A stretch of DNA of 64,000 bases from Candidatus Eisenbacteria bacterium. GTDB taxonomy: Bacteria; Orphanbacterota; Orphanbacteria; Orphanbacterales; Orphanbacteraceae. A program made the translations under genes and the position numbers. The stretch lies in contig JAFGGD010000034.1 of NCBI GenBank assembly GCA_016930695.1, positions 62,001-126,000 on the forward strand, written 5' to 3'. Shown here one piece after another: positions 23,305 through 30,959 of the stretch (its first letter is position 1; the number at the start of each line of letters is the position of its first letter). Below the pieces are notes generated by a model, which saw only the letters and a program-made list of their open reading frames with translations, was not told the origin of the DNA and searched no databases.

Positions 23305-25185
23305 TCAGTATCCTCTGCGGCTCTGCTCGATGGAGCGGAGCCAGATTCGAGCCTCCACGAAGGCGGGGTCGGCGCGGAGGGAGAGACGGAGTTCCCGAAT
23401 CACCCCTTCCAGGTCGCCCCTTTCGTGGAGGATCATCGCTTTTCCATAGTGCGCCTTCGCTTGGCCGGGATCGACGCGCAGCGCGCGCGTGAAGTCGCGC
23501 CAGGCTTGCTCCGCCGCGCCGTCCTGAACGAGCAGAATCCCCCGGTTCACCCAAGCATCGGCAAAAGTGGAATCGATCTGAACGGCACGGTCGTAGCACG
23601 CGAGCGCGCCCTCCCGATCCCCGTCCATCTCGGTGAGAATACCCAGATTGTTCCAGGTGATGGCGTGATCCGGATCGATCTCTAGAATTCTCCTGTAGGT
23701 CCGCTCCTCGTCTTCCCGCTCTCCCAGCTTGTGGCGGCACTGGGCGAGACGGTTCAGCGCATCCACGTTCTCCGGATCGACCGCGAGCGCTTTCAGGAAG
23801 ATCTCCGCCGCCTCGGCGGTTCGCTCCTCCATCGCCAGGTTCCTTCCGGCGAGGATCCACTCGTGGGCGAGAAAGCGGTCACGCGGGTCCGGCGCCCCCT
23901 CTTCGGCGTTCGCGGTGTGCGCGGGCGTCGTGTATCCCAACGCGAGGAGCGCCGCCTTCTGTTCCTCGGTGAGGGCGGGCTCTTCCCGGTCCTCCTTCGG
24001 CGCCGGCTGCGACGCGATCAATCGGTCCAACTCCTCCTCCAGGCGGTGCGCCCGTCCTCTCTCCGCGTCGAAGAGGTCCTCCTCCTCGCGTGGGTCCGGG
24101 TCGAGGTGGAAGAGTTCGCTCCGGGCGCCGCGCACCAGTTTCCAGCCCCCCTCACGCACGGCGTAAAGAGGCGACCAGCCGTAACCGATCGCGCCGTAGT
24201 AGGTCTCGGCGTAACGGACGCGGGCCGGGTCGCCAGCCCCGTCGCCGCCGGAGAGCGCGCTCCTCCCGGGCCAGGAACGGTCGGCGCGGAAGGAGAACAA
24301 CTCCGCGAGAGTGGGGAGGAGGTCCGTCGATTCGACGGGAGAAGAGTCGATCTCGCCGATCGGGCCTCCCGGAATCCGCAGGATCCAAGGAACGGCGAGC
24401 GTGGTCTCATAGAGGAGAAGGCCGTGCTCCGACTCGTCGTGCTCTCCGAGTCCCTCGCCGTGGTCGGAGAGGGCGATGACGACCGTTTCGTCCAGGATTC
24501 CCGCCGACCGGATCGCGTCCATCACGCGTCCCACCTGGTTGTCCACGTAGGCGACCTCGCCGGCGTAGCCGTTCCCACCGGCGGCGAGAGTGAAAGGTTC
24601 CGGCGGATCATAGGGGGAGTGGGGATCGTAGTAATGGATCCACGCGAAGAAGGGGCGTTCCGGATCGCGCTTAGCGAACCAGTCGAGGAAGGAGCGGGTC
24701 ACCCCTTCCGCGCGGCGCTCCCATAGACCGTGGAGCCCCATCTCCGATTCCTCCGTTTCCCACTCGTCCTCATAGACCTCGAACCCGCGCTCGAGTCCGT
24801 AAGCGCCGCTCAGCACCTGGCTCGCCAGGAAGGCGGCGGTGACGTAGCCCTTCTCTCCCAGAAGCTCCGCCAGGGTGGGGAAATCCACGCCTACCCGGAG
24901 GCCATTGTGCCTGGCGCCGTGGAATGCCGGATAGAGGCCGGTGAAGAGAGAGGCGTGGGAAGGGAGGGTGATCGGCACGGGGACCTGCGCGTCGGCGAAG
25001 AGAACTCCTTCCCGGGCGAGACGGTCCAGATTGGGCGTCCGAGCCGCCTCCGCTCCATAACAGCCGATCGCGTCCCGGCGGACCGTGTCGAGCGTGATAA
25101 TCAGGAGATGGCGATGCCTCCCCTCGCCTCCGCCGCCGCAGGAGAGGAGGAGGAGGAGTCCGAGAATGATCCACCGCCGCAACAT
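23305..25185 (-). CDS. Sulfatase-fold (alkaline phosphatase superfamily) lipoprotein with C-terminal TPRs
   Basis: This 626-residue protein has a lipoprotein signal (LLLLLSC), an alkaline-phosphatase-superfamily domain (about residues 25-400) and a TPR array (about 430-610, with repeats such as AITWNNLGILTEM). Metal-site motifs are LIITLDTVRRD and ALSDHGEGLGEHDE. At the position of the sulfatase formylglycine Cys/Ser the sequence reads TLPSHASLFTG, so Thr replaces Cys and His replaces the signature Arg. A Thr nucleophile suggests a phospho- or phosphotransfer reaction rather than sulfate-ester hydrolysis; this is inference. TACAAT lies 6 nt before the ATG with no Shine-Dalgarno, hinting at a leaderless message. 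The LysM transglycosylase gene follows. Confidence 0.85.
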   Translation of the reverse strand: MLRRWIILGLLLLLSCGGGGEGRHRHLLIITLDTVRRDAIGCYGAEAARTPNLDRLAREGVLFADAQVPVPITLPSHASLFTGLYPAFHGARHNGLRVGVDFPTLAELLGEKGYVTAAFLASQVLSGAYGLERGFEVYEDEWETEESEMGLHGLWERRAEGVTRSFLDWFAKRDPERPFFAWIHYYDPHSPYDPPEPFTLAAGGNGYAGEVAYVDNQVGRVMDAIRSAGILDETVVIALSDHGEGLGEHDESEHGLLLYETTLAVPWILRIPGGPIGEIDSSPVESTDLLPTLAELFSFRADRSWPGRSALSGGDGAGDPARVRYAETYYGAIGYGWSPLYAVREGGWKLVRGARSELFHLDPDPREEEDLFDAERGRAHRLEEELDRLIASQPAPKEDREEPALTEEQKAALLALGYTTPAHTANAEEGAPDPRDRFLAHEWILAGRNLAMEERTAEAAEIFLKALAVDPENVDALNRLAQCRHKLGEREDEERTYRRILEIDPDHAITWNNLGILTEMDGDREGALACYDRAVQIDSTFADAWVNRGILLVQDGAAEQAWRDFTRALRVDPGQAKAHYGKAMILHERGDLEGVIRELRLSLRADPAFVEARIWLRSIEQSRRGY

Positions 25186-25356: not shown

Positions 25357-26082
25357 TTAACGGAACAGATCCTTCACGGCACCCCACGAAGTATTTTCGG
25401 TCGCGATGCCCGGCTGGCAATCGAAGCTGGCGTCGACGAAGCCCTCGGACGGGCCGAGACCGTCAGCCAGGTATTGCGGCGGGCAGTACTGGGTCACGGG
25501 ACCACCCCAGTAGAAGGTGTGGCCCGGAACGGTCGGGACAACGAAGCCGGCGCAGGGATTCGGCGCCGCGATGTTGGCCACGTTGTTGGTCGAGCAGAAG
25601 CGCGGCAGGGTACCCTTGACCCAGGTCATGATGAGAGCCACATAGTCGGCGTCCACGCAGCCGAGGCCGTCGTAGTGGTTCCACCGTTCGAGCGGGTCGA
25701 TCGGGGCCGCGCCGCCGACGTAGCTGGTCTTGCAGTAGGTAGCATCCAGCTCCCAAAGGTCGACCACAACGTAGTATTCGTAGGTCGGGAGCGTGTAGCG
25801 CCAGTACCACCAGCTGCCCAGGTTATCGCACCCCTCGCCCGCGAGCTTGCCGCAGTCGACGGGCAGGTCGAAATAGACACCCACCTCATCGCCCGGGCCC
25901 CAGCCGGTCCAGGTCCAGAGCCAGCCGGCGCAGAGGTTGTAGTAGATGATCGAGCAGAAACCGGTGGCCGCCCCGTCACCATGGGGGACGATCGCTTCCT
26001 GCATGGCTTCCCGCTGGAAGTCGGCGTTCGCCGCCGCGGCAAAGGCCACGGTCAGAAAGGCGATCAAAAGCAGCTTTCTCAT
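25357..26082 (-). CDS. Cys-rich secreted protein, paralogue 1 (unknown family)
   Basis: This 241-residue protein has a clear Sec signal peptide (MRKLLLIAFLTVAFAAAANA, residues 1-20). The mature part is rich in Cys, Trp, Tyr and Gly, with blocks such as GFCSIIYYNLCAGWLWTW and NPCAGFVVPT. About eleven cysteines suggest disulfides in an extracytoplasmic protein. I do not recognise the family. A second copy lies at 26810-27541, and the C-terminal halves are nearly identical. The start ATG at 26082 is preceded by a strong AGGAGG. The gene has its own terminator and a long leader containing a structured element shared with the paralogue. Strong Shine-Dalgarno and dedicated terminators suggest high expression of a surface or secreted product. 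Confidence 0.85.
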   Translation of the reverse strand: MRKLLLIAFLTVAFAAAANADFQREAMQEAIVPHGDGAATGFCSIIYYNLCAGWLWTWTGWGPGDEVGVYFDLPVDCGKLAGEGCDNLGSWWYWRYTLPTYEYYVVVDLWELDATYCKTSYVGGAAPIDPLERWNHYDGLGCVDADYVALIMTWVKGTLPRFCSTNNVANIAAPNPCAGFVVPTVPGHTFYWGGPVTQYCPPQYLADGLGPSEGFVDASFDCQPGIATENTSWGAVKDLFR

Positions 26083-26097
26083 GTTTTGAAACCTCCT

Positions 26098-26115
26098 CAC
26101 GGTCTTCGGACCGTG
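26098..26115 (-). promoter_or_regulatory. Tetraloop hairpin abutting the Shine-Dalgarno of paralogue 1
   Basis: On the minus strand CACGGTC-CGAA-GACCGTG is a perfect 7-bp stem with a four-base loop. Its 3' arm ends directly at the AGGAGG ribosome site (26092-26097). Such a hairpin could keep the ribosome site exposed or protect the 5' end of the message. The paralogue lacks it. Confidence 0.55.
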
Positions 26116-26176
26116 CAAGACGGAATGACACGTGTTGTCGCTTATTCCTTTCTCGATCGAGATCGAAAGCGCGGCA

Positions 26177-26218
26177 TCACCTCCTACGGGTCCTCGAGGT
26201 ACATGTTGGGAAGCTATC
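26177..26218 (-). ncRNA. Conserved 42-nt leader element, copy 1
   Basis: This 42-nt block recurs in the leader of the paralogue (27614-27655) with 30 of 42 positions identical. Read on the minus strand it contains GATAGCTTCCCA, then ACCTC, a loop with AGGACCC, then GAGGT inside AGGAGGTGA. ACCTC and GAGGT can pair, hiding a near-perfect anti-16S sequence about 95 nt before the true ribosome site. The pairing is preserved in both copies although the loop sizes differ (12 versus 11 nt). I recognise no known riboswitch or RNA family. Confidence 0.6.
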
Positions 26219-26234
26219 GGCAAACAATCCTATA

Positions 26235-26286
26235 AACGAAACACGCCGACCGTTTCGGGATCGAGAAAGAAGGCATCGATGAAGCA
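26235..26286. repeat. Diverged direct repeat, copy A
   Basis: This segment, beginning around AAACG then CGCCGACCG and ending ATCGATGAAGC, resembles 26338-26390 about 103 bp further on. Shared pieces are CGCCGACCG, a central GGGATCGAG/GGGTCCGAA stretch, GCATCGATG/GCGTCGATG and GAAGC. It lies within the long leader of paralogue 1. Confidence 0.5.
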
Positions 26287-26337
26287 AATTCGACCGGCAG
26301 AGCGAGGTGTGAGAGCCCGAACGGCCCTGCTCATCCA

Positions 26338-26390
26338 AACGCGAAAACGCCGACCGGATCGGGTCCGAAAGGGGGCGTCGATGGTGAAGC
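26338..26390. repeat. Diverged direct repeat, copy B
   Basis: Partner of 26235-26286, with the same order of blocks (AAACG, CGCCGACCG, GTCGATG, GAAGC). A perfect small inverted repeat GGACCG-TG-CGGTCC lies just beyond, at 26416-26429. Together they suggest that the leader region of paralogue 1 has been partly duplicated. Confidence 0.5.
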
Positions 26391-26448
26391 GACGAGATGC
26401 AGAACGGAGAGGCGCGGACCGTGCGGTCCATATTGCTTAGCGATTGAC

Positions 26449-26478
26449 AGGATAACCGAAAAGGGAGACCGCGGTCAA
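26449..26478 (-). promoter_or_regulatory. Possible promoter for paralogue 1
   Basis: On the minus strand TTGACC (26478-26473) and TATCCT (26454-26449) are 18 bp apart. A start near 26442 would give a leader of about 360 nt containing both direct repeats and the 42-nt element. A start closer to the gene cannot be excluded. Confidence 0.45.
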
Positions 26479-26479
26479 G

Positions 26480-26756
26480 CGAGATTTTGAAGTTTCAAGG
26501 ATGGATCGGATGGCACCTTGTAAATGATTGAAAATCCACGCGGTGTAAAAAAGGCAGGAAATATCATGTGTCTATCGATAATGCCGTTATTCATTAACCC
26601 GTGTTAATCAATTACATGGTCCATTGATCGGGAGCGGGGGCTCGGCCATTCATCGCGCTTTTCCCGGGCGCCTTTCCCCATGAGGTCGATCCGTTCTCCG
26701 GATGGGGGACGGCTGAATGAAAAGGCGTCTCGGCCGCGCTCATTTTAAGAAAAAAG
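26480..26756. other. AT-rich intergenic stretch with small palindromes, no gene
   Basis: This part of the 727-bp gap between the two paralogues is visibly richer in A and T than its surroundings, particularly 26490-26625. I can support no gene in it. It holds two small inverted repeats: ATAA-TGCCG-TTAT (26578-26590) and ATTAAC-CCGT-GTTAAT (26593-26608). The lower GC content could mark a recombination scar from the gene duplication or a regulatory region. Confidence 0.5.
26593..26608. promoter_or_regulatory. Perfect 6-bp inverted repeat (possible operator)
   Basis: ATTAAC and GTTAAT form a perfect inverted repeat with a 4-bp spacer, next to a second one at 26578-26590. The size and AT-rich arms are like a binding site for a dimeric regulator. 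It lies upstream of the proposed promoter of paralogue 1; no regulator can be named. Confidence 0.3.
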
Positions 26757-26789
26757 AAAATCCCGGCCGGAGATCCGGCCGGGATTTTT
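26757..26789 (-). terminator. Strong Rho-independent terminator of paralogue 2
   Basis: On the minus strand a perfect 14-bp stem (AAAATCCCGGCCGG with its complement) around a 4-nt loop is followed by TTTTCTTTTTTC. It begins about 20 nt after the stop at 26810. This is the clearest intrinsic terminator in the window. Confidence 0.9.
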
Positions 26790-26809
26790 GGTCGTTGAAT
26801 CGTCCGGAA

Positions 26810-27541
26810 CTACCGGAACAGACCCTTGACCTCGCCCCAGGAAGCGGGCTCGGTGGCGATGCCGGTCTGGCAATCGAAGCTGGCGTCGATGAAGCCCTCG
26901 GACGGTCCGAGGCCATCAGCCAGGTACTGCGGCGGGCAGTACTGGGTCACGGCGCCACCCCAGTAGAAGGTGTGACCCGGAATGGTCGGGACAACGAAGC
27001 CGGCGCAGGGATTCGGCGCCGCGATGTTGGCCACGTTGTTGGTCGAAGCGAAGCGCGGCAGGGTGCCGAGAACCCAGGTCATCATCAGACCGCAGTAGTC
27101 GCTGGACACGGTGCCGAGACCACCGAAGTTGTTCCAACGCTCGATCGGGTCGATGGTGGCCGAACCGCCGACGTAGCTGGTCTTGCAGAACGAAGCATCG
27201 AGCTCCCAAAGGTCGACGTGCACCTCATACCCGTAGGTCGGGAGGGTGTAGCGCCAGTACCACCAGGAACCGAGGTTCTCGCAGCACTCGCCCGCGAGCT
27301 TGCCACAGTCGGCCGGCAGATCGAAGTAGACGCCAACCTCATCGCCCGGGGCCCAGCCGGACCAGGTCCACAGCCAGCCAGCGCAGAGGTTGTAGTAAAT
27401 GATGGAGCAGAAGCCGGTGGCGCCGCCGTCACCATGAGGCGCGATGGCTTCCTGAACGGCCTGGTGCGGACGGTTCACATCACCGAACGCCGTCGCCGCC
27501 AGGGCCAGAGCCAGGAAAGCAACCAGGAGTAGCTTCTTCAT
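26810..27541 (-). CDS. Cys-rich secreted protein, paralogue 2 (unknown family)
   Basis: This 243-residue protein has a Sec signal peptide (MKKLLLVAFLALALAATAFG, residues 1-20) and a Cys/Trp/Tyr-rich mature region co-linear with paralogue 1. Shared blocks include GFCSIIYYNLCAGWLWTW, PGDEVGVYFDLP, LGSWWYWRYTLPTY and TNNVANIAAPNPC. Part of the coding sequence (26984-27046) is identical in DNA to the paralogue over 63 bases. A strong AGGAGG precedes the ATG, a near-consensus extended -10 promoter lies at 27692-27721, and a strong terminator follows. I do not know the family; a secreted structural or binding protein is possible. Upstream, divergently, lies the TPR-tailed glycosyltransferase. Confidence 0.87.
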   Translation of the reverse strand: MKKLLLVAFLALALAATAFGDVNRPHQAVQEAIAPHGDGGATGFCSIIYYNLCAGWLWTWSGWAPGDEVGVYFDLPADCGKLAGECCENLGSWWYWRYTLPTYGYEVHVDLWELDASFCKTSYVGGSATIDPIERWNNFGGLGTVSSDYCGLMMTWVLGTLPRFASTNNVANIAAPNPCAGFVVPTIPGHTFYWGGAVTQYCPPQYLADGLGPSEGFIDASFDCQTGIATEPASWGEVKGLFR

Positions 27542-27613
27542 GAGTATGGAACCTCCTAAGAAATACGTTTGAGACACGACCACTCGCTAGGAATGTTTTG
27601 TCTCTCTCAGCCT

Positions 27614-27655
27614 TCACCTCCTTGGGGTCCTGAGGTTCGTGCCTGGGAAGCTATC
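27614..27655 (-). ncRNA. Conserved 42-nt leader element, copy 2
   Basis: Counterpart of 26177-26218: GATAGCTTCCCA, ACCTC, an 11-nt loop with AGGACCC, then GAGGT within AAGGAGGTGA. It begins about 30 nt after the predicted transcript start and ends about 72 nt before the start codon. Positions outside the blocks have diverged while the stem pairing remains, which argues for RNA structure rather than chance. The rest of the 373-bp gap up to 27914 holds the two divergent promoters and no gene. Confidence 0.6.
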
Positions 27656-27691
27656 AGGTCAAAAATCTGTCGGTCTAATCCAAGTGGACTA

Positions 27692-27721
27692 ATTGTAGCA
27701 TCCTCGATCTCAAAAAGTCAA
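27692..27721 (-). promoter_or_regulatory. Strong extended -10 promoter for paralogue 2
   Basis: On the minus strand TTGACT (27721-27716) and TACAAT (27697-27692) are 18 bp apart, with TG one base before the -10 box. This is close to consensus and predicts a leader of about 145 nt for the Cys-rich protein gene. Confidence 0.75.
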
Positions 27722-27835
27722 CCGGGAAATGCGGGGGTGGGGTCACTAACTCTCGTGACGGCAAAACTCTAACACAAGATCTCCCCGGGTGTCTACCCCC
27801 CGAACGGGGATTTGGTATCCACCCTCGGTTTTCTC

Positions 27836-27864
27836 TTGTGCCCCCGCGCCCGGATTGTTACAAT
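27836..27864 (+). promoter_or_regulatory. Promoter for TPR-tailed glycosyltransferase
   Basis: TTGTGC (27836-27841) and TACAAT (27859-27864) are 17 bp apart, about 45 bp upstream of the ATG at 27915. It is divergent from the promoter at 27692-27721, leaving about 115 bp between the two. Confidence 0.6.
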
Positions 27865-27914
27865 CCAGATCGCATATCTATTTTTGTGGCAACAGGTTAA
27901 GGGGCTTGAGGCCG

Positions 27915-29918
27915 ATGAAATACCCGTCCAGACGAACCTCGCTCCTGCTGCTCCTCCTCCTTATCGGCAGCGCCCTACGATTCTTTCACATTTTTGACAT
28001 GCGCGAATCACCGGTTTTCGACCGTCCGGTGATGGATCCCGCCTACCACCATGAATGGGCGCTCTCTCTGGTCGACGGAGACCCGATCACCGATGGGGAG
28101 CCCTACTTCCGCGCGCCTCTCTATCCCTATTTTCTCGCCGCCCTCTATCGATCGGGGGGGGATCCTCTGATCCGCGCGCGCGCCGCCCAGGCGATTTTTG
28201 GGGTTTTTTCGCTCTATCTTATTTATTTGCTTGGGTTAAGGGTTTTCAGCCCGGCCGTGGCGTTTCTCGCCCTCGGCATGGCGCTTCTCTACCCTCTCTT
28301 CCCCTATTTCGAGGGGGAACTGCTGATCACGTCACTCGTGGTCTTCTTGGACCTGCTTCTCTTGTTGCAACTCCTGCGGGCGGAAAAACTCGACCGAAGA
28401 CGGGAGTGGGTGGTCGCCGGGGCGGTTCTGGGGTTGTCGGCGATCGCCCGCCCCAACGTTCTTCTCTTTGCCCCCGCCATACCGATCTGGTTGGCTTTTC
28501 TGCGGCGATGGGGACCCCGGGGAATCGCCGGCAGGACGCTTCTCACGGCGGCCGGCGCCCTGCTCCTGATCCTTCCGATTACGGTCCGAAACGCCCGGCA
28601 GGGGGATCCCGTGCTGATCGCCAGCCAGGGGGGGATCAATTTTTACTTGGGAAACCATCCAGGCGCGGACGGTTGGAGCGCGACCGCGCCGGGGATCCGC
28701 AAGGACTGGTGGGGGGGAATCGAGGATGCCCGCATCCTCGCCGAAAGAAGCGCCGGGCGGCCGCTCCGCGCCTCGGAGGTATCGGATTATTGGTATGGGC
28801 GCGGCCTCTCCTTCTTCCGCGAGCGGCCCGGAGAAGCGTTCCGTCTCCTTTTCCGGAAGACCTATCTGCTGGTTCGAGGCGGGGAACTCTCCAACAACCA
28901 GATCATCCCCTTCGCCGCGCGTTACTCCCGGGTGTTTCGCCTTCTCCCTCTCGGTTTCGGCCTGATCGTTCCTCTCGCCCTTCTGGGTATGCTCGGCGGC
29001 ATCCGGGAGAAGAGAAGACTCCTTCTGGTTCTCTTTCTAGGTTTCTACTCTCTCTCCATCGTGAGCTTCTTCATCTGTTCCCGCTATCGAATGCCGCTTC
29101 TGCCGCCCCTTCTCCTCTTCGCGGCCGCCGCGCTCCTCCGCCTCGGCGGGGACCTGAGGAGGCGCCCCGCCCGCGCGGGAGGCGCGTTTCTTTTCTTGGG
29201 CGGCGCTCTTTTTCTTCTCAATCACGACTTCGGCGTTCCGGGACCCGTCAATTGGGCGTTGGGGTACCAGGGGGAGGGTCTCTCCCTTATGGAGCGCGGG
29301 GACTTGGATGCGGCGGAGGAGCGTTACCGCGCGGCGATCCGGATCGATCCGGGCTCCAGCGTGGCCCATCACGATCTGGGCGTTCTTCTTCGCCGAAGGG
29401 GGGACCTGGAGGGGGCGGTCGCCTCGATACGACTTTCCCTGACCCTGGACTCCCTGAATGTCGAGGCGTGGAATAATTTGGGCATCACCCTCGCCGCCGA
29501 GGGGAAGGCCTCCGAGGCGATCGATGCCTACAGGCGGGGGATCGCCCTGGACGATCGCAATCCCAATCTTCACGCCAATCTCGCGTTTCTCCTCCAGCAG
29601 GAGGGGCGCTACGAGGAGGCGATCGACGAGTACCGGTTCTTTCTCCGATCCGGGATCGCGGATGGGAGGATCCACGCCAATCTGGGTATGGCGCTGATCC
29701 GCGCGGGGAAGACGGCCGAAGGGGAGGAGGAACTGCGGCGAGGCGTGCGCGTTTCCCCCGGGCTACCCGGTCCGGTGATTCTGCTCGCCGATCACCTGGC
29801 CGCGACGGGGAGGGCCGGTGAGGCGATCGCCCTGCTCCGGGAGGCGGCGGCGCGTATGCCGGGCGACCGAACGATCGAGCGGAGGCTCGTCGCGCTGGAA
29901 AACGGAGCGGCGCCGTGA
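27915..29918 (+). CDS. GT-C membrane glycosyltransferase (PMT/ArnT-like) with C-terminal TPRs
   Basis: This 667-residue protein has about ten transmembrane helices (residues 8-445) and a C-terminal TPR domain (about 465-667, with repeats such as VEAWNNLGITLAAEGK). The first extracytoplasmic loop, FDRPVMDPAYHHEWA then PYFRAPLYPYFLAALY, has the acidic and PLYP features of PMT_2/ArnT-type enzymes. These move sugars from polyprenyl-phosphate to proteins or lipids on the outer face of the inner membrane. The acceptor is unknown. The ATG at 27915 is chosen because a Lys/Arg-rich N-terminus then leads into the first helix. A beta-helix protein gene follows after 72 bp. Confidence 0.85.
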   Translation: MKYPSRRTSLLLLLLLIGSALRFFHIFDMRESPVFDRPVMDPAYHHEWALSLVDGDPITDGEPYFRAPLYPYFLAALYRSGGDPLIRARAAQAIFGVFSLYLIYLLGLRVFSPAVAFLALGMALLYPLFPYFEGELLITSLVVFLDLLLLLQLLRAEKLDRRREWVVAGAVLGLSAIARPNVLLFAPAIPIWLAFLRRWGPRGIAGRTLLTAAGALLLILPITVRNARQGDPVLIASQGGINFYLGNHPGADGWSATAPGIRKDWWGGIEDARILAERSAGRPLRASEVSDYWYGRGLSFFRERPGEAFRLLFRKTYLLVRGGELSNNQIIPFAARYSRVFRLLPLGFGLIVPLALLGMLGGIREKRRLLLVLFLGFYSLSIVSFFICSRYRMPLLPPLLLFAAAALLRLGGDLRRRPARAGGAFLFLGGALFLLNHDFGVPGPVNWALGYQGEGLSLMERGDLDAAEERYRAAIRIDPGSSVAHHDLGVLLRRRGDLEGAVASIRLSLTLDSLNVEAWNNLGITLAAEGKASEAIDAYRRGIALDDRNPNLHANLAFLLQQEGRYEEAIDEYRFFLRSGIADGRIHANLGMALIRAGKTAEGEEELRRGVRVSPGLPGPVILLADHLAATGRAGEAIALLREAAARMPGDRTIERRLVALENGAAP

Positions 29919-29990: not shown

Positions 29991-30959
29991 ATGAAAGAAC
30001 TCGTAGCTGCTGTTTTACTCGCCGCTCTGATGCTCCCCTTCGGAGCGGCGGCGAAAGACATCGCGGTACCCGGTGACGCCGCCACCCTGGAGGATGCCGT
30101 TCAATCGCTCGCCGACGGAGACCGGATCGTACTCGGTCCGGGCGAATACGGAGCGGGGTTGGTGATCCCCGAGGGAATCGGTTTCTCGCTTATCGGCCGG
30201 GATGGAGCCGAATCGACGGTGATCCGCCCCTCCGATCCGGCCATGAACACGGTGGTCGCCTATGGCGGAGGCGCGGCGCGCATCGAGGGGATCACCTTCG
30301 ACATGAGCGAGGCAAAAGGTCTGTTCGCCGTTCTGCTGGCCGATCGCGAGGTGGCACTCCGGGATTGCCGCTTTCTCGGCGGCGCCGGCGTACGGATCGA
30401 TTCCTGCGAGGGGGTTCTGGAAGGGAACAGCTTCGAGGGTTGCTTCGACGGGATCCGGATCGCCAACTCCCCTCTTCGGATCGACGGCAACCACTTCTCC
30501 GATTCCGAGCAATATGACATCACCTGCCGCGCATCGACGGCGGAAATCGTTCGAAACCGTTTCGTGAACACGGGGAACGCCTGCATCGTGATCGTGGGGA
30601 AACGGTACCATCCGACGGTGGGCGGCGCCCCCGGCAAGGGGAACGTGTTTCTCGGTAGTCAGTACCTGGTCGTCGCGAACCAGTCCCGCAACGAGATCGA
30701 CGCGCGGTACAATTTCTGGGGACCCGTGCTCACTTCGACCATGAACCGTCTCGGCTACCCGGCCAACCTGGACGAGATCCAGGATTATTGGGACTCGGAC
30801 AATCTGGCCGCGGGCAAAGTGGATTACCGGAACTGGTTGCAATCGGAGGACGATCGGGGAGGTTTCCCGATCCTTCAGGCGGTCCTCCTGGCGGCGGTGC
30901 TCGCGGTGCTGCTCTTCCTGCTCTTCCGCCTGGTTCGGAGACGCCGCGCCGCCGCTTGA
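29991..30959 (+). CDS. Secreted right-handed beta-helix protein with C-terminal membrane anchor
   Basis: This 322-residue protein has a signal peptide (residues 1-21, ending GAAA), a parallel beta-helix region (about 40-250) and a C-terminal transmembrane helix (about 295-315) followed by RRRRAAA. The repeats show typical turns, for example IDGNHFSDSEQYD, IVRNRFVNTGNA and DARYNFWGPV, as in carbohydrate-active and NosD-like proteins. A single helix plus Arg-rich tail resembles sortable or C-terminally anchored surface proteins, although no LPXTG or PEP motif is visible. AAAGGTGA precedes the ATG. It probably belongs to the same transcript as the glycosyltransferase upstream. Confidence 0.8.
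   Translation: MKELVAAVLLAALMLPFGAAAKDIAVPGDAATLEDAVQSLADGDRIVLGPGEYGAGLVIPEGIGFSLIGRDGAESTVIRPSDPAMNTVVAYGGGAARIEGITFDMSEAKGLFAVLLADREVALRDCRFLGGAGVRIDSCEGVLEGNSFEGCFDGIRIANSPLRIDGNHFSDSEQYDITCRASTAEIVRNRFVNTGNACIVIVGKRYHPTVGGAPGKGNVFLGSQYLVVANQSRNEIDARYNFWGPVLTSTMNRLGYPANLDEIQDYWDSDNLAAGKVDYRNWLQSEDDRGGFPILQAVLLAAVLAVLLFLLFRLVRRRRAAA

Follow-up and report, generated by a model that had tools for sequence, protein, structure and literature searches.

The window (the whole 64,000-nt stretch of DNA analysed, from genome G000) carries two tandem paralogs, genes A and B, whose predicted products are both secreted and Cys-rich. The initial annotation described two 42-nt blocks upstream of these genes, which agree at 30 positions and keep a stem, ACCTC/GAGGT, hiding the anti-16S sequence AGGAGGTGA. 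The locus raises the question of whether the blocks belong to a conserved leader RNA or are a mere residue of a recent duplication, and whether the hidden sequence is the point of the element. The features concerned are listed below.

25357..26082, minus strand: gene A, paralog of gene B, 81% identical
26090..26097, minus strand: ribosome binding site of copy A, AGGAGGTT
26179..26200, minus strand: hairpin P2 of copy A (ACCTC 26200-26196, loop GAGGACCCGTAG 26195-26184, GAGGT 26183-26179)
26208..26214, minus strand: box GCUUCCC of copy A, within GATAGCTTCCCA 26207-26218
26757..26788, minus strand: intrinsic terminator 3' of gene B
26810..27541, minus strand: gene B, encoding a 243-aa secreted Cys-rich protein with a signal peptide, predicted to be beta-sandwich-like
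27530..27536, minus strand: GAAGCUA in codons 2-4 of copy B, able to pair with UAGCUUC at the box in a candidate long-range helix, P1
27550..27557, minus strand: ribosome binding site of copy B, AGGAGGTT; (A/G)GGAGGTT is kept in all leaders
27571..27604, minus strand: predicted hairpin P3 of copy B (GAGACA...UGUCUC), fold z -1.8
27609..27643, minus strand: hairpin P2 of copy B, with covariation across genera
27645..27651, minus strand: box GCUUCCC of copy B, within GATAGCTTCCCA 27644-27655; identical in 8 leaders of 7 genomes
27692..27721, minus strand: sigma70-type promoter of copy B (TTGACT 27721-27716, 18-nt spacer, TACAAT 27697-27692, TG before the -10)

The gene pair and its two leaders

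The two blocks, at 26177-26218 and 27614-27655 on the minus strand, lie 136 nt (copy A) and 114 nt (copy B) upstream of the ATG. Their identity is indeed 30/42, whereas the best 42-nt match was 27 (mean 22.5) in a shuffle control of the two 300-nt leaders (n=300), and 24 elsewhere in the two leaders, outside the blocks. Exact occurrences of GATAGCTTCCCA were limited to these two sites, both in the window and in the whole G000 genome, which contains no third copy of the box. The ACCTC/GAGGT stem, together with the loop motif GGACCC, is common to both copies. In copy B, P2 consists of the 5' arm GGCACGAACCTC (27643-27632), the loop AGGACCCCAAG (27631-27621) and the 3' arm GAGGTGAAGGCT (27620-27609), and its helix contains a tandem G.A/A.G; in copy A the outer helix has decayed. 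Copy A also has no promoter comparable to that of copy B at the corresponding position, and it looks partly decayed. The sequence AGGAGGTT adjoins the ATG of each gene, about 55-80 nt downstream of AGGAGGTGA, so the hidden sequence lies far from the true ribosome sites, as had been noted.

The secreted protein had no family match in Pfam or NCBIfam, and the PDB sequence search found no solved relative. The AlphaFold2 model (mean pLDDT 84.9) is composed mostly of beta strands after the signal helix. The best Foldseek matches were weak (best E 0.002, low TM-scores) and of the jelly-roll or carbohydrate-binding type. A high abundance of the protein is conjecture, prompted by the promoter. All seven genomes compared contain several members of the family (up to 10 matches, in G005). 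For example, three more tandem paralogs without the leader element are located at about 1085-3137 of L017 (G000:C18:1-4500). A tandem G004 paralog (L026, G004:C21:27951-31676, minus strand) has CTTCCC about 50-60 nt before the ATG and a Shine-Dalgarno (SD) sequence reading GGGAGG, without the GGACCC hairpin; this leader may be a natural P2 deletion. The neighbouring ORFs of the window, described from their sequence only, encode a sulfatase-like lipoprotein with C-terminal TPR-like repeats (23305-25185, minus strand), a multi-pass, glycosyltransferase-like membrane protein with C-terminal TPR-like repeats (about 27789-29918, plus strand), and a secreted protein that looks like right-handed beta-helix repeat proteins and has a transmembrane anchor at its C-terminus (29991-30959, plus strand). 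The first two of these flank the pair A and B.

Conservation of the leader across the phylum

Because genes A and B are 81% identical paralogs, two copies in one genome prove little alone, and it is the relatives that establish the element. The phylum sample comprised seven genomes (G000-G006) of five genera in one family, and the gene is present in all six other genomes. In each of them the closest homolog starting with MKK(L)LLV, at 48-58% protein identity to gene B, has the leader element. The element was thus found upstream of the ortholog in 7/7 genomes (8 leaders), downstream of a transcription start inferred from the promoter. The proposal of a shared structured leader upstream of Cys-rich secreted proteins is therefore upheld, and its occurrence in five genera is more than the residue of a recent duplication. 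The TTGAC...TAC(A/G)AT promoter arrangement also occurs in G003-G006, and the -10 of G001/G002 is weaker (TACTCT).

The leaders share a common order: the invariant GCUUCCC box, a linker of 0-5 nt, P2, the predicted P3 stretch, (A/G)GGAGGUU, a few nt, and AUG. P2 has a helix of up to 12 pairs and a loop of 11-14 nt containing GACCC, which is preceded by G in all leaders except those of G005/G006. The P3 region of every leader is predicted to contain a hairpin, and its changes between G001 and G002 are paired. The seven nucleotides of the box are invariant in all leaders while its flanks have diverged; the box and the loop are the sole strictly kept sequences, if the ribosome site and some positions in the stem are set aside. 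By comparison of these sequences, the element is the core of a structured 5' leader, about 145-155 nt long, of one secreted-protein gene across the lineage. This leader probably helps to set the timing or strength of protein production.

Sequence turnover and covariation of P2

The arms of P2 were replaced nearly wholesale between genera, with the pairing retained. They read GGCAAGAACCUC/GAGGUGAUUGCA in G005, GCGAAGAUCCUC/GAGGAGAUUCGC in G004, AGGGCGUCCCUG/UGGGGGUGCCCG in G003, and GUUGGCUUUCUC/GAGAAAGUCGAC in G001/G002. The two middle positions form a tandem G.A/A.G in G004, G005 and copy B of G000; G003 has G.U/U.G there, and G001/G002 have Watson-Crick pairs. The covariation was quantified in alignment A11, which consists of six sequences, with G001 and G002 as close relatives and copy A left out. 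The alignment was hand-guided, in that the linker between box and helix was shortened and an artificial 18-nt anchor was appended against misalignment of the arms by MAFFT; the anchor lies outside the counted pairs, and the arms were picked by eye, which favours structure. In A11, pairing held in 86.1% of the cells vs 61.3% after shuffling, and 8 of the 12 P2 pairs had changed on both sides; a look for compensatory changes was the test proposed in the initial annotation. The covariation score was 0.711 vs 0.247 +/- 0.054 for shuffled alignments (0/500 shuffles reach the score), and slid-partner controls gave 0.072-0.233. In an arm-swap test, the native arms formed 56 pairs, and 4 of 720 permutations attained that number. 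Both this test and the slid controls argue against hand guidance alone as the explanation of the covariation. The compensatory changes thus support P2 as a conserved secondary structure, of the kind by which a cis-regulatory structured leader is recognised.

Comparison of the arms also identifies AGGAGGTGA as the 3' strand of P2 including the tandem G.A mismatch. Its counterparts are AGGAGGAGA in G004, ATGGGGGTG in G003 and CCGAGAAAG in G001/G002, in leaders that retain box, loop and pairing. The anti-16S sequence is one strand of a covarying stem and is itself not kept in 3/7 genomes, and the idea that it is the point of the element is not supported. An apparent hidden Shine-Dalgarno can be the by-product of a covarying stem, and it is the relatives that decide, not the match to the anti-16S.

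Searches for further copies and known families

Covariance model R1 was built from G000, G004 and G005; it misses G001-G003, because MAFFT misaligned P2 among the genera. Over the seven phylum genomes, R1 gave strong matches only at the orthologous leaders, and the 12 weak matches inspected look like coding sequence. The pattern GCTTCCC...GGACCC matched at about control level, and beyond the orthologous leaders no inspected locus resembles the element. One candidate, L091, was rejected, since it lacks the loop spacing and owes its score solely to stem pairing arising by chance. A leader of this kind on other secreted genes, which the initial annotation suggested looking for, was not found in these searches: there is one element per genome, and the two in G000 result from local duplication. 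A search of R1 over 290 relatives yielded four matches (E 0.01-0.03), fewer than expected by chance, and no convincing copy. Protein relatives in G072, G213, G277 and G140, from other phyla, are without the element in the loci read. As R1 is blind to divergence at the level of G001-G003, these searches do not prove its absence beyond the seven-genome set.

No Rfam 15 family matched the window or four orthologous loci at the gathering threshold. A permissive scan of 26080-27800 gave weak matches only, far below the gathering scores, and none of them overlaps the element. This agrees with the earlier statement that it corresponds to no known RNA family, and no paper combining Eisenbacteria and riboswitch was found among those searched. 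The element thus represents a genuine, narrow new family of leader RNAs: supported by covariation, absent from Rfam, and joined to a secreted family that neither Pfam nor NCBIfam covers, in a little-known, uncultivated lineage represented here by metagenome-assembled genomes alone.

Putative control of translation initiation

Consensus folding of the 8 whole leaders with 30 nt of coding sequence (RNAalifold, unconstrained) paired the box with codons 2-4, and GCUUC.GAAGC was intact in 7/8. When the four leaders of G001-G004 were folded alone, the box paired with the Shine-Dalgarno. In single-leader ensembles, pairing of the box with the SD and/or the codons had substantial probability in 6/8 leaders, not in G005/G006, and was weak in copy A; the effect over a flank-shuffle control was modest only. 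The box strand was more complementary to codons 2-11 than its own shuffles in G000 copy B (p 0.002), G001 (p 0.003), G003 (p 0.016) and G004 (p 0.000), and no excess was found in G005 or copy A. With only the flanks shuffled, the same comparison was weaker (p 0.029, 0.032, 0.213 and 0.012). Box strands and start regions swapped between leaders pair about equally well; the pairing has little covariation of its own, since both partners are near-invariant. Synonymous identity among G001, G003 and G004 was 0.81 in codons 2-8 vs 0.54 from codon 11 to the end, though a few other windows of the gene are similarly high.

Whole-leader folding z was -3.0 to -5.1 in G001-G004. The values for the two G000 copies (+0.25 and -0.4) and for G005/G006 (+1.4 and +0.7) were not unusually stable. 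In G001-G004 (L021, L022, L023, L024), the predicted transcript also begins with a strong hairpin; this lineage-specific feature of the leader is missing or weak in G000 and G005/G006.

The consensus folds, the ensembles, the complementarity of the box strand and the synonymous identity of codons 2-8 together make control of translation initiation, through the predicted pairing of the box, the reading judged most likely, a best guess given a probability of roughly 0.45. That the element is single-copy in cis fits a cis-acting control element. The box might be a switchable anti-initiation strand. In one state, GCUUCC would pair with the SD GGAGGU; in the other, GCUUC would pair with GAAGC in codons 2-4 and enclose P2 and P3. 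Alternation between the two partners would tune ribosome access, and P2 with its conserved loop could be the domain for docking or sensing that tips the box towards one of them. A fuller version, in which the leaders form a two-state class whose invariant heptamer alternates between the SD and codons 2-4, as set by a ligand, protein or sRNA at the (R)GACCC hairpin, and so controls secreted-protein output, is decidedly speculative. The gene downstream of the leader encodes a secreted protein and is no metabolic gene.

Other arrangements were rejected. A pseudoknot between the box and the GACCC loop was discarded by reasoning, on account of its geometry (0-5 nt of linker would have to span a 12-pair helix) and of the broken UCC/GGA complementarity in G005/G006. 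A search of the mRNA for conserved GGGTC or GGGAAG partners found none. An upstream ORF directed by AGGAGGTGA could give MPRFRSRSRKE from an ATG in copy A; copy B is without the ATG, and the ORF is not conserved.

Alternative explanations

The leader might instead stabilise the mRNA in the manner of ompA, with hairpins near the 5' end shielding a highly expressed transcript from ribonucleases, and with the box and loop as details of folding or packing. This is possible, though on the doubtful side. The product is secreted, the leader is long and structured, copy B has a strong promoter immediately upstream, and in G001-G004 the hairpin that begins no more than a few nt from the predicted 5' end has a z of -2.7 to -4.2; the ompA 5' UTR is a known precedent (PMC7509114). 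However, G000 and G005/G006 have that terminal hairpin only in weak form or not at all, and a generic stabiliser needs neither an invariant 7-nt box nor a conserved loop sequence.

Strict retention of the box and the loop, beside a stem free to covary, would also be explained if a trans-acting RNA-binding protein or small RNA docked on the leader by recognising GCUUCCC and (R)GACCC. C-rich single strands are known to mediate RNA-RNA contacts, as UCCCC does in S. aureus (PMC3868564). However, the searches turned up a single target in each genome, whereas most trans regulators have several, and a binding site of this kind is rather unlikely.

Ribosome standby or a STAB-SD, by which the hidden AGGAGGTGA would bind 30S subunits away from the start codon, is highly improbable. 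Although AGGAGG(U/A)GA is present in G000, G004, G005 and G006, it is lost in G001, G002 and G003 despite persistence of the box, loop and hairpin. A STAB-SD is an accessible, conserved SD-like sequence near the 5' end, whereas this one is buried in the 3' strand of P2, with its GA as the tandem helix mismatch. A DNA operator or residual duplicated sequence, to which the inverted repeat near the promoter and the tandem duplication in the window might point, is equally implausible, as the element lies downstream of the predicted transcription start, is common to 5 genera at 48-58% protein identity, and had its stem swapped between genera for different pairing sequences with the G-U and tandem G.A pairs that are typical of RNA.

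Comparison with known systems

Control of initiation through the box would resemble icaR of S. aureus (PMC3868564), in which a C-rich motif, UCCCCUG, is complementary to the SD of its own mRNA and could block ribosome loading. The icaR motif is located in the 3' UTR, whereas the box belongs to the 5' leader, where about 100-130 nt and a covarying hairpin separate it from the SD, and its pairing is only predicted. The ompA 5' UTR, an mRNA stabiliser in E. coli and an RNA thermometer in Yersinia (PMC8245352), is likewise a structured leader of the mRNA of a secreted or envelope protein; however, the element described here has a conserved box and loop, and no sequence or structural homology was noticed. 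The STAB-SD of cry3A (PMC4113751) is also an SD-like leader sequence with no part in directing translation of its gene, whereas the SD-like sequence here is stem-buried and not conserved. Finally, the ribosomal leaders and orphan leader motifs reported from comparative genomics (PMC7247131, PMC2864571) likewise emerged from covariation upstream of a single gene family, with their function inferred; the leader described here differs in preceding a gene for a secreted, not a ribosomal, protein, and in being outside Rfam 15.
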